Source: Mitsuaria sp. 7 (GTDB lineage: Bacteria; Pseudomonadota; Gammaproteobacteria; Burkholderiales; Burkholderiaceae_C). Taken from it: a stretch of DNA of 64,000 nucleotides. The notes beneath the pieces are model-generated. The model was not told the DNA's origin. It did not search any database and was given only the letters and a program-made list of their open reading frames with translations. The position numbers were made by a program, and so were the translations under genes. Location: NCBI RefSeq assembly GCF_001653795.1, contig NZ_CP011514.1, forward strand, positions 2,333,715 through 2,397,714, written 5' to 3'. Shown in pieces: positions 57,727-61,121 of this stretch (positions within the stretch are counted from its first letter, which is position 1; every line of letters begins with the position of its first letter).

Positions 57727-57759
57727 AAGGGCCCGGAGGTGCGAACCCCCGGGCCCTTT
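57727..57759 (+). terminator. Terminator of acnB
   Basis: 10-bp stem AAGGGCCCGG / CCGGGCCCTT with a 12-nt loop, then T; 78 bp after the acnB stop and convergent with sodC. Confidence 0.75.
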
Positions 57760-58377: not shown

Positions 58378-58881
58378 TTACCAGCCGCCCTTGGCCACGT
58401 ACTTGTTGCCGTTGGCCTGGTAGCGCGCGATGGCCTCCTTGAGGTCGGTGTGCTGCTCGCAGGACGACTTGCATTCAGTGGCCAGCGACGCCAGACGGGC
58501 CTGCGCCTTCGGCAGGTCGCCCTTCATCAGGTAGAGCTCGCCCGAGTACTCCAGCGCGTTGCGGTGATGCGGGTCGATGCGCAGCGCCTCGTCGTAGTAG
58601 CGCTCCGACGCGGCCAGATCCGGATTGCCGGCCTTGCGCGACACGTAGCCCATCAGGTTGTTCCAGTCCGCGCTGCGGCGGTCGTCGACGCGCTTGAGTT
58701 CGTCGCGAGCGGCTTCCCACTGACGTGCTTCGATCAGTTGACGCGCGGTGGCCAGGCGGTTCACCGCGGGCGCGGGAGCGGCCGATTGCGGCGGCGCCAT
58801 GTCGGCGGCCTGCGCGGATGGGAGGGAACCGGCCAGCGCCCAGACGGCGGCCACCAGGGACAGCAGCTTCATAGTCTTCAT
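58378..58881 (-). CDS. Exported TPR-repeat protein
   Basis: 167 residues. Signal peptide (about 1-26). Two to three tetratricopeptide-like units: ARQLIEARQWEAARDELKRV, NPDLAASERYYDEALRIDPH, and ALEYSGELYLMKGDLPKAQA. A C-terminal ECKSSCEQHTDL carries two Cys. Probably a periplasmic protein-binding factor. The GAGGAG ribosome site and the ECF-type promoter motif upstream link it to the sigma gene; sodC follows. Confidence 0.82.
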   Translation of the reverse strand: MKTMKLLSLVAAVWALAGSLPSAQAADMAPPQSAAPAPAVNRLATARQLIEARQWEAARDELKRVDDRRSADWNNLMGYVSRKAGNPDLAASERYYDEALRIDPHHRNALEYSGELYLMKGDLPKAQARLASLATECKSSCEQHTDLKEAIARYQANGNKYVAKGGW

Positions 58882-58922: not shown

Positions 58923-58954
58923 ACTTACGGGACTGTGATGACGGCGGACGCACC
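58923..58954 (-). promoter_or_regulatory. ECF-type promoter of the TPR-sodC unit
   Basis: On the minus strand: GGTGCGTCCG, 14 nt, CCGTAAGT. The same two boxes with the same spacing occur before the DUF3455-sigma operon. The -10-like box lies 42 nt before the TPR start, giving a leader of about 35 nt. Confidence 0.75.
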
Positions 58955-59040
58955 CGATATCGAAAAATCGCTGTAACGATTCGTGGAGCGCGCGAGACCT
59001 GACCCCGCCCTCACGCGCTCACCGGAACATCACCGGGGCC

Positions 59041-59802
59041 TCACCACACCTTGACGCAGGCGCCTTCGAGCACGAACGCCGATGGCGTCGCCGGTGCCGG
59101 ACCATCGCTCGCCTCCAGGCTGATCGCCACGCGACCCACGCTGAAGAAGAGCTTCTCGGATTCAGCAGGCAACGCGATCTGCGTCTGGCCCGATGGCGAG
59201 ACCGTGCCGACCACGAACGGCGCACCGTCCTTCGGAACGGCCCACAGCGTGGCGCGACGACCTTCAGGCACGGCGATGGGACGCAACACCTTCACGGTGA
59301 GCAGCTTGCCGTGGCGCTTGGAACTCACGACGACGGACGGCGGCGAGTCCTGCGCGCTCAGCACGCCGACGTAGCTCGCGGGCAGCGCTTCCGACGCGGG
59401 CTCCAGGCCCACGGTGGTCGGCACCGTCTTGACGAGGACCACCGCGAGCAGCAGCCCGGCGAGGACACCGCCGGCCGCGCGACCGGTGAGCCAGCCCAGC
59501 ACGGCGCTGAGGCCGCCGCTCGGCCTGGGCTGTTTGCTGGTCTGCTTGCTGGCCTGTTTCGATTCTTGAGCTCGCGGGAACAGGCGCTGCTCGATGCCCT
59601 GCCACGTCGTGACGGGCGGCTGGATGAGCACCGGCGTGCGTTCCATCACCGCGATGCGTTGCTCCCACTGCGCGACCGCGAGCGCGATCGGCCGGGAGTC
59701 ACGCATCAGCGTGACGAAGCGACGCCGCGCGGGTCCTTGCAGCGTGCCCAGCACGTACTCGCGCGAGAGGTGTTCCAGCAGCTCGGGACGGTTGTAGTTC
59801 AT
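59041..59802 (-). CDS. RskA-type anti-sigma factor
   Basis: 253 residues. N-terminal cytoplasmic part (1-100) begins MNYNRPELLEHLSREYVLGT, the zinc-less RskA sigma-binding pattern; then a single membrane helix (about 108-128, AAGGVLAGLLLAVVLVKTV) and a periplasmic RskA C-terminal domain (SVVVSSKRHGKLLTVKVLRP and onward). It would hold the sigma factor at the membrane until a periplasmic signal. Its start overlaps the sigma stop at ATGA, so production is coupled. Confidence 0.88.
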   Translation of the reverse strand: MNYNRPELLEHLSREYVLGTLQGPARRRFVTLMRDSRPIALAVAQWEQRIAVMERTPVLIQPPVTTWQGIEQRLFPRAQESKQASKQTSKQPRPSGGLSAVLGWLTGRAAGGVLAGLLLAVVLVKTVPTTVGLEPASEALPASYVGVLSAQDSPPSVVVSSKRHGKLLTVKVLRPIAVPEGRRATLWAVPKDGAPFVVGTVSPSGQTQIALPAESEKLFFSVGRVAISLEASDGPAPATPSAFVLEGACVKVW

Positions 59803-60374
59803 GGCGTGGCCACTCCGCCGGCTTCGAGGCAGGCCTTGAGGCGATCGAGCCCCCGCCGCACCCACGCCTTGATCGTGCCGAGCGGCGCATGCAGCGCCTC
59901 GGCGATCTCGGTGTGGACCATGCCGCGGTAGTAGGCCAGCGCCAACGCCTGACGCTGCTGCGCGGACAGCGCCTGCATGCAGGCGCCGATGCGGGCGTCG
60001 GCCAGGTTCTGCTCGAGCAGCTGCAGCGGCTCGCCGGCCGCGTCCGCCGGCACGGCGAGCGCGTCCTCGTCGAGCTCGACCGAGTGCTCGTCCTCGTTCC
60101 GGCGCGAGCGCAGCTGGTCGATGGCCTTGTTGCGGACGACGTTGATCATCCAGGTCATCGGCGTGCCGGCCTCGGGCCGATAGCCCTGCGCGTGGTGCCA
60201 GATGCTCACGTAAGCCTCCTGGAGGTTCTCCTCCGCGCGCTGTTCGTTCCTCAACATACGCAAGGAGACGGAGAACAGATGCGCGCTCGTCAGCCGATAG
60301 AGGAGCTCGAAGGCCGCGCGGTCGCGCAGCGCCACGCGGGCCATCAGGTGGGGGAGGTCTTGATTCGCTGGCAT
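59799..60374 (-). CDS. ECF sigma factor (SigK/RskA-group)
   Basis: 191 residues. Region 2 (about 25-90) has FSVSLRMLRNEQRAEENLQE and PMTWMINVVRNKAIDQLRSR; region 4 (about 130-180) has LALAYYRGMVHTEIAEALHA and PLGTIKAWVRRGLDRLKACL. No extra C-terminal domain. I chose the ATG at 60374 because it starts region 1.2/2 directly. Encoded between DUF3455 and its anti-sigma. Two near-identical promoter motifs in the window point to autoregulation. Confidence 0.9.
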   Translation of the reverse strand: MPANQDLPHLMARVALRDRAAFELLYRLTSAHLFSVSLRMLRNEQRAEENLQEAYVSIWHHAQGYRPEAGTPMTWMINVVRNKAIDQLRSRRNEDEHSVELDEDALAVPADAAGEPLQLLEQNLADARIGACMQALSAQQRQALALAYYRGMVHTEIAEALHAPLGTIKAWVRRGLDRLKACLEAGGVATP

Positions 60375-60423
60375 CACCGGGGGACTCACTGCGAGGACCC
60401 GGGATGATCCGTCAAGACGGCGC

Positions 60424-61035
60424 TCACCGCGACGGGGCGACACCCCAAAAGAGGTAGTCGGCGCTGTAGCCGATGCGGACGGTGCGGCCCGTGGCCGCGG
60501 CGACGCACTCCGAGGCCGGCGGAGCGACACCGCCCACGGTGTTGATGCGCTGCACCGCGTCGACGGGATCGAGACCGCCGACGCCGCTGCGCGACTTCAC
60601 CGACAGCAGCAGCCAGGGAATGGCGCCCGCCGTGGGCGCCGGGGAAGAGGCCTTGACCTGGCCGACGATGCGGGAGCCGTCCTCCAGGCGCCAGAACGGG
60701 CCGGCGCCGTGGTCGCCGACCTTGGCGCCGCTGGCGTTGAACAAGGTCGCCTCGGGCCCGCGGAACTGCCACTCCCAAGCGCTGTTCGCACCCTGCGCGC
60801 ATTCGTAGATCTGGACGCCAGTGGCGTGGACCTGCAGGAGCAGGCGCGAGCCGTCCGCGGGGCGCAACGTCGCAGGGACCTCAGGGATCTTGATGGCGAT
60901 GGCGTTCCCGGCCGCGGTCGGCTCATCCGGCAGACGGGACAGCTCGTCCGCGGACGGTCGGGAAGCCTGCGCGCTCGCGCAGGTCGCGATGGCGACGGCG
61001 AGCAGGGGAAAAACGGTAGCGGCGATTCGCATCAT
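60424..61035 (-). CDS. Exported DUF3455 protein
   Basis: 203 residues. Signal peptide (about 1-24, ending CASAQA). The body has VPATLRPADGSRLLLQVHAT, GVQIYECAQGANSAWEWQF, HGAGPFWRLEDGSRIVGQV and the final RIGYSADYLFWGV, matching DUF3455. Function not known; family members are often stress-induced exported proteins. First gene of the sigma operon and preceded by the ECF promoter motif. Two Met codons in a row open it, so the start may be 61032. Confidence 0.85.
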   Translation of the reverse strand: MMRIAATVFPLLAVAIATCASAQASRPSADELSRLPDEPTAAGNAIAIKIPEVPATLRPADGSRLLLQVHATGVQIYECAQGANSAWEWQFRGPEATLFNASGAKVGDHGAGPFWRLEDGSRIVGQVKASSPAPTAGAIPWLLLSVKSRSGVGGLDPVDAVQRINTVGGVAPPASECVAAATGRTVRIGYSADYLFWGVAPSR

Positions 61036-61089
61036 GGAAATCTCCTTGTCGGATGGCAGAAGGCGCGGCTTGAGTGCCGCACATCATCC

Positions 61090-61121
61090 ACTTACGGCGA
61101 CAGGTCCAGGACGGATGCACC
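61090..61121 (-). promoter_or_regulatory. ECF-type promoter of the DUF3455-sigma-anti-sigma operon
   Basis: On the minus strand: GGTGCATCCG, 14 nt, CCGTAAGT. It matches the element at 58923-58954 in 17 of 18 box positions and in spacing. The -10-like box is 55 nt before the gene start. Confidence 0.75.

Follow-up and report, generated by a model that had tools for sequence, protein, structure and literature searches.

The window (the whole 64,000-nt stretch of DNA analysed here) carries two almost identical two-box elements on its minus strand, placed on either side of genes for a DUF3455 protein, an ECF sigma factor and an anti-sigma factor. This arrangement raises the question of whether the elements are promoters recognised by the sigma factor between them, and which genes such a factor would control. 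We judge it likely, with a probability of about 0.85, that both are promoters of this SigK-like ECF sigma factor and belong to a SigK/RskA-type regulon.

The locus and its two elements

Pfam searches confirmed the genes that a preliminary description of this DNA had named: DUF3455, an ECF sigma factor, an anti-sigma factor with an RskA_C domain, a TPR protein and a Cu/Zn superoxide dismutase (Table 1). Along the minus strand, candidate promoter 1 is followed by the DUF3455 gene, a gap of 49 nt, the sigma gene and the anti-sigma gene, whose first 4 nt lie within the end of the sigma gene; then come candidate promoter 2, the TPR gene, sodC after 57 nt and a hairpin. SodC also scores 192.9 bits against NF007628 (cutoff 165). 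Judged by eye, the N-termini of the DUF3455, TPR and SodC proteins are probable signal peptides, and residues 111–124 of the anti-sigma factor form a hydrophobic stretch. The AlphaFold2 model of the DUF3455 protein (mean pLDDT 86.5) consists largely of beta strands, and the predicted beta-barrel appears to resemble cyclase and dirigent barrels, a likeness too weak for a functional claim.

Table 1. Positions of the genes and sequence elements discussed in the text
Feature	Position	Strand	Remarks
Candidate ECF-type promoter 1	61090..61121	-	GGTGCATCCG-N14-CCGTAAGT, exact match; 5' of DUF3455-sigma-anti-sigma
DUF3455 secreted protein, 203 aa	60424..61035	-	PF11937, 115.8 bits (cutoff 25)
SigK-like ECF sigma factor, 191 aa, Cys132 + Cys182	59799..60374	-	Sigma70_r2 and r4
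RskA-type membrane anti-sigma factor, 253 aa	59041..59802	-	PF10099 RskA_C, 42.6 bits (cutoff 29.4)
Candidate ECF-type promoter 2	58923..58954	-	GGTGCGTCCG-N14-CCGTAAGT, exact match; 5' of TPR-sodC
Secreted TPR protein, 167 aa	58378..58881	-	TPR_19, 25.8 bits (cutoff 25)
sodC, periplasmic Cu/Zn superoxide dismutase, 178 aa	57784..58320	-	Sod_Cu
Intrinsic-terminator-like hairpin, 14 pairs	57727..57758	-	3' of sodC; consensus match only
Third motif copy, 1 mismatch	C1:1651284-1651315		741 kb from the window; 5' of Tll0287 haem-sensor/kinase operon

Both elements are present on the same strand as described, and the reported agreement in 17 of 18 box positions, with a 14-nt spacer in each, is borne out. 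They fit the pattern GGTGCRTCCG-N14-CCGTAAGT, and the end of the -10 box lies 54 nt before the ATG of DUF3455 and 41 nt before that of the TPR gene (at 58881). The boxes include CATCC or CGTCC; SigK promoters have a CATCC-type -35 element. A consensus scan found no sigma-70-like promoter in the region. The genome-wide search that had been suggested as a check, with spacers of 13–15 nt, returned two exact copies, both inside the window, and none for the reversed-pattern control, in an assembly (G000) of 6,085,092 bases (6.09 Mb) that is 96% complete. With up to three mismatches and a spacer of 14 nt, three sites were found in the whole genome, having 0, 1 and 1 mismatches to GGTGCATCCG-N14-CCGTAAGT, against four for the reversed control; the looser core TGCRTCCN{15,16}CGTANRT gave the identical three sites and two control matches. 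At most three mismatches were likewise allowed in 100 dinucleotide shuffles of the window, which on average gave 0.13 matches.

The gene that begins 49 nt past the end of the third site encodes a Tll0287-like/HAMP protein with the sequence CLGCH; motifs of this CxxCH type bind haem. Downstream on the same strand are genes for a Ser/Thr kinase, a DEAD_2-type helicase, a zinc peptidase and a transglutaminase-like protein. The proposal of a local stress regulon with SodC, TPR and DUF3455 as outputs is supported with regard to its members, but the regulon would not be only local, given the distance of the third site; the unit would widen further in relatives, where the motif also precedes cytochrome b561–YceI genes and, once, another sodC.

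Identity of the sigma factor

The window sigma has the composition of an ECF (group 4) factor, with Sigma70_r2 (48 bits) and Sigma70_r4_2 (46.2 bits) in 191 residues. Among solved structures, SigK of Mycobacterium tuberculosis is nearest in sequence (4NQW, E = 1.8e-25), followed by RpoE/SigE (2Q1Z, 3.1e-16). Its sole cysteines, Cys132 and Cys182, align with two cysteines of 4NQW, the redox pair of SigK, and are kept in all 16 aligned sigmas; for this pair, C133/C183 in SigK, the conservation is 94% among ECF18 and 56% among ECF19 factors (PMC7509140). Against the NCBIfam SigK model (PRK09646) the window sigma scores 155.3 bits, below the cutoff of 226, and it is therefore called SigK-like here and not filed as SigK. 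Placement of M. tuberculosis SigK itself differs between sources: ECF18 in PMC7509140, and the AS19-1 group, i.e. ECF19, in PMC7406223.

Closeness to SigK in sequence, equivalent cysteine positions and an adjoining RskA_C anti-sigma factor above cutoff are shared with the SigK/RskA systems (ECF18/ECF19) of M. tuberculosis and its relatives, and would place the window sigma in the SigK/RskA type. It differs from its mycobacterial counterpart in coming from Burkholderiales, in its sub-cutoff NCBIfam score and in its targets, which are predicted to be the TPR, DUF3455, SodC and haem-sensor kinase genes, whereas MPT70/MPT83 are the targets reported for M. tuberculosis (PMC7509140). RpoT, an ECF18 factor of Pseudomonas, is likewise a SigK-related ECF sigma of Proteobacteria, and its predicted operon includes an anti-sigma factor (PMC3597554); the difference is that no efflux-pump gene occurs among the motif sites listed here. 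A literature search found no study of this SigK-like sigma of Burkholderiales.

Conservation of the motif in relatives

A scan of species genomes with the sigma yielded 20 loci, and the 15 from Burkholderiales were used; L019–L023, from Sphingobacterium, Neobacillus and Dietzia records with 21–36% identity, were left out. The TPR gene lies inside the fetched stretch in 14 of the 15 relatives and on another contig in the fifteenth, Roseateles noduli. In 13 of these 14 stretches (13/15 relatives) the TPR orthologue comes next, or almost next, after the anti-sigma gene; the exception, L005, has it on the opposite strand, some 3.5 kb upstream of the sigma. The motif is present 5' of the TPR gene in all 16 genomes (window and 15 relatives) with 0–4 mismatches over 17 positions, while the next-best match within each stretch has at least five mismatches in 14 of the 15 scanned and four in L010. 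Acidovorax sp. CF316 has one more TPR copy, immediately before the sigma (L017:9488-9856), which lacks the motif; its best match has six mismatches.

The distance between the 8-mers at the TPR site is 14 nt in the window, L004, L005, R. noduli, L012 and L015–L017, and 15 nt in L007–L011, L013, L014 and L018; both spacers are found inside single genomes, e.g. in Rhizobacter. Recurrence is spacing-specific, with 18 matches at a spacer range of 14–17 against 0–2 for eight other ranges. The DUF3455 genes of L004, L005 and R. noduli (L170) are likewise preceded by the motif of promoter 1, the spacers of these copies being divergent. Phylogenetic footprinting supports the earlier idea of one ECF sigma with two promoters, driving DUF3455–sigma–anti-sigma and TPR–SodC. 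The companion claim, that the sigma transcribes its own operon, fits the window and three relatives (L004, L012 and L014) and appears to be lineage-specific: a site before the sigma, or before the gene leading into it, is present in 4 of 16 genomes, as against 16 of 16 for the TPR gene. The TPR gene would be the core target of the regulon and the antioxidant genes its variable targets.

The motif with and without the sigma pair

In R. noduli, the DUF3455 gene is directly followed by TPR–sodC–acnB; sigma and anti-sigma are absent between them, and both motifs are kept. The motif therefore belongs to the targets and is not a mere co-traveller of the sigma genes. Two further sigmas close to that of the window are present in this genome (67% and 61% identity); one of them, with its anti-sigma, stands directly before the Tll0287–kinase operon, where a weaker motif, CGCATCCG-N14-CCGTAGAT, is found. 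The same operon is remote from the sigma in the window genome and has the third motif copy there.

A separate family draw comprised 150 genomes, with a TPR match (E ≤ 0.001) in 55 and an anti-sigma match, mostly distant, in 81. The exact pattern TGCRTCCGN{14,15}CCGTAAGT occurred three times in the window genome and three times elsewhere, with three control matches. From this draw 40 regions were fetched, one being the window genome's own paralogue, and the 16 with a TPR protein of at least 50% identity were scored, the motif being called at no more than three mismatches of 16. TPR orthologues adjoining a sigma/anti-sigma pair (L107 holds the anti-sigma alone, at a contig end) have the motif in six of six cases, with 0–3 mismatches; those in genomes without a close copy of the pair have it in none of ten, with 5–7 mismatches (Fisher p = 1.2e-4, uncorrected for relatedness). 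Half of the positives (L097, L098 and L101) lie on contigs equal in length to those of L012, L008 and L018 and are therefore counted as genomes of the first set. In the ten motif-less genomes the strongest anti-sigma match, that of G005, is 1.5e-28 at 36% identity, no match is above 41% identity, and G133 and G030 have none at all; the motif of G005 is a drifted one, with five mismatches. TPR and sodC are adjacent in one of these genomes, G139 (L095), without sigma and without motif, which shows that the two genes can occur together outside the regulon.

The alternative that survives best, although we consider it unlikely, assigns the boxes to a paralogous SigK-like sigma encoded elsewhere in the genome and 46% identical to the window sigma, or to both sigmas. 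This paralogue (G000:C1:2005299-2006635, L130) has an RskA-like partner and the same cysteine pair and could share promoters; a second relative of 40–52% identity, in pieces in two genomes, occurs in 14 of the 16 genomes searched, and further ECF relatives occur in all 16. This alternative is hard to reconcile with genomes that have only the distant type of anti-sigma (G074, G053, G056, G005, G090 and G011), where the TPR orthologues lack the motif, or with the family draw, in which all three exact motifs outside the window genome sit between a close anti-sigma gene and the TPR gene.

In some more distant genomes the TPR genes are preceded by TGCATCCR-N14-NCGTYTAT, a relative of the motif (L119:4393-4422, L134:5054-5025 and L102:5805-5776). 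Its drifted form suggests a sister sigma with altered -10 specificity.

Putative targets across species

Searching 16 genomes with TGCRTCCN{15,16}CGTANGT gave 23 matches against 14 for the reversed control, and 16 of the 23 precede recurrent families: TPR (4), DUF3455 (4), cytochrome b561 or YceI (4), Tll0287 (2), sigma (1) and SodC (1). A longer spacer gave 13 matches against 6 in 18 genomes, 11 of them before TPR (8, all known earlier), b561, DUF3455 and kinase genes (1 each). Leaving out those previously known, 13 sites are new: from the first scan, DUF3455 and TPR in R. noduli and, elsewhere, one DUF3455, one SodC, three b561, one YceI and two Tll0287 sites; from the longer-spacer scan, one each before b561, DUF3455 and kinase genes. 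Pfam confirms b561, YceI, SodC, DUF3455 and Tll0287 in one or two examples each, and the other genes are named by sequence likeness. The signal of the motif lies in its placement and recurrence; raw match counts are hardly above, or not above, those of reversed controls.

A b561 gene is present in 16 of the 18 genomes. The motif precedes it in five (L173, L174, L175, L178 and L186), lies between b561 and YceI in L179, and is absent at b561 in the other 10 of 16, the window genome among them. Tll0287-like proteins were found at 23 loci in 17 of the 18 genomes; among the 22 loci scored, seven have the motif before the Tll0287-like gene (L189, L190, L196, L200, L201, L206 and L207). In L195 it stands solely before the kinase behind that gene, and in L005 a Tll0287-like gene lies behind the motif-bearing TPR gene. 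This variation of target sets between lineages (5/16 for b561, 7/22 for Tll0287-like genes) counts against the main reading, as do the motif-less extra TPR copy of the Acidovorax genome and the low NCBIfam SigK score.

A matrix trained on 17 TPR promoters was run over 57 sources (531,950 bases) at a score of at least 13, as an illustration and not an independent trial, since its hits take in 14 of the 17 sites used for training and count four sites again where loci overlap. It gave 47 hits, 43 at a called gene start and four at none, as against five sites in reversed bases. The box ends 6–109 nt 5' of the called start in 42 of the 43 gene-linked hits; for L186 that start is placed upstream of the site.

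These distances bear on a second alternative, in which the repeats are not promoter boxes recognised by a sigma factor but operators to which a DNA-binding regulator attaches. Two conserved boxes do not by themselves prove a promoter. These boxes, however, are direct and non-palindromic, have ECF-like spacing, face the gene at the distances just given and track with the sigma gene, and the region has no sigma-70-like promoter; we regard an operator as very improbable. That the two intergenic regions resemble each other by chance or through common ancestry can be dismissed, being contradicted by the footprinting: at least two loose (three-mismatch) matches did arise in 2 of 100 shuffled windows, but the motif recurs over 16 genomes and before several unrelated target families, and the spacers of ten Roseateles-group promoters are unrelated (36% identical, against 84% in the boxes).

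In a Methylibium-like genome, a single motif copy (L137:1501-2776) stands 17 nt before the gene of a small secreted-looking protein with no Pfam match, accompanied by an MbnB/TglH-type enzyme gene (a bufferin-like set). If real, this single case might link the regulon to copper.

Proposed mechanism and role

That the locus belongs to an ECF regulon of a known kind is well supported by the sequence comparisons; the precise promoter and the target set would be what is new. The motif, its conservation, the target families, the gene order and the cysteine pair can be read directly in the DNA, and from them the following course may be proposed for the SigK-like sigma and its promoters. The RskA-type membrane anti-sigma would hold the sigma inactive, as in its family, until an envelope or redox signal released it. 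The freed sigma would direct RNA polymerase to TGCRTCC-N16-CGTAAGT and transcribe DUF3455–sigma–anti-sigma, giving positive feedback, as well as TPR–sodC and, in trans, the operon of the Tll0287 haem-sensor/HAMP protein and Ser/Thr kinase. The output would be periplasmic and membrane defence against superoxide and radicals.

Since SodC, cytochrome b561 and a haem-type sensor are among the putative targets, a role in envelope superoxide or lipid-radical defence is suggested. E. coli CybB, a relative of cytochrome b561, is a superoxide:ubiquinone oxidoreductase, and in Burkholderia the b561–YceI set is part of a lipid-peroxyl-radical detoxification system (PMC9113575). The gene set equivalent to this LcoA-BcnA-BcnB system (cytochrome b561–YceI–YceI) bears the motif in several relatives; it differs from the window system in being a putative target, not a regulator, and the b561 gene of the window genome is without the motif. 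The terms 'sigma factor' and 'ECF' are absent from the main text of PMC9113575. A bolder reading, to which we give slightly less than even odds, is that a thiol-switched SigK-like sigma runs a dedicated envelope radical-defence regulon in the Roseateles-Rhizobacter-Acidovorax group, comprising SodC, superoxide-oxidase-type b561 with YceI lipocalins, DUF3455 barrels, the secreted TPR protein and a haem-sensor/Ser-Thr-kinase branch. If so, the sigma would be a candidate regulator of LcoA-BcnA-type lipid-radical detoxification in the lineages that have the motif there.

A resemblance between two stretches of DNA thus becomes a testable regulon, with a precise candidate promoter, a putative core target in the TPR gene and variable antioxidant targets. 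DUF3455, a family of unknown function, would gain a regulatory home and a possible role in envelope stress, and the cytochrome b561–YceI genes of some lineages a proposed regulator.

The neighbourhood of the DUF3455 promoter varies between genomes. In R. noduli (L170:1633-3623) a Septu-type PtuA/PtuB pair, identified by PADLOC matches, lies just before this promoter; in the Mitsuaria relative L004 (8177-8644) DUF3455 is preceded by sequence that matches PtuA at its C-terminal end, and the window has chaC in that place. The slot beside the regulon is a variable defence slot.
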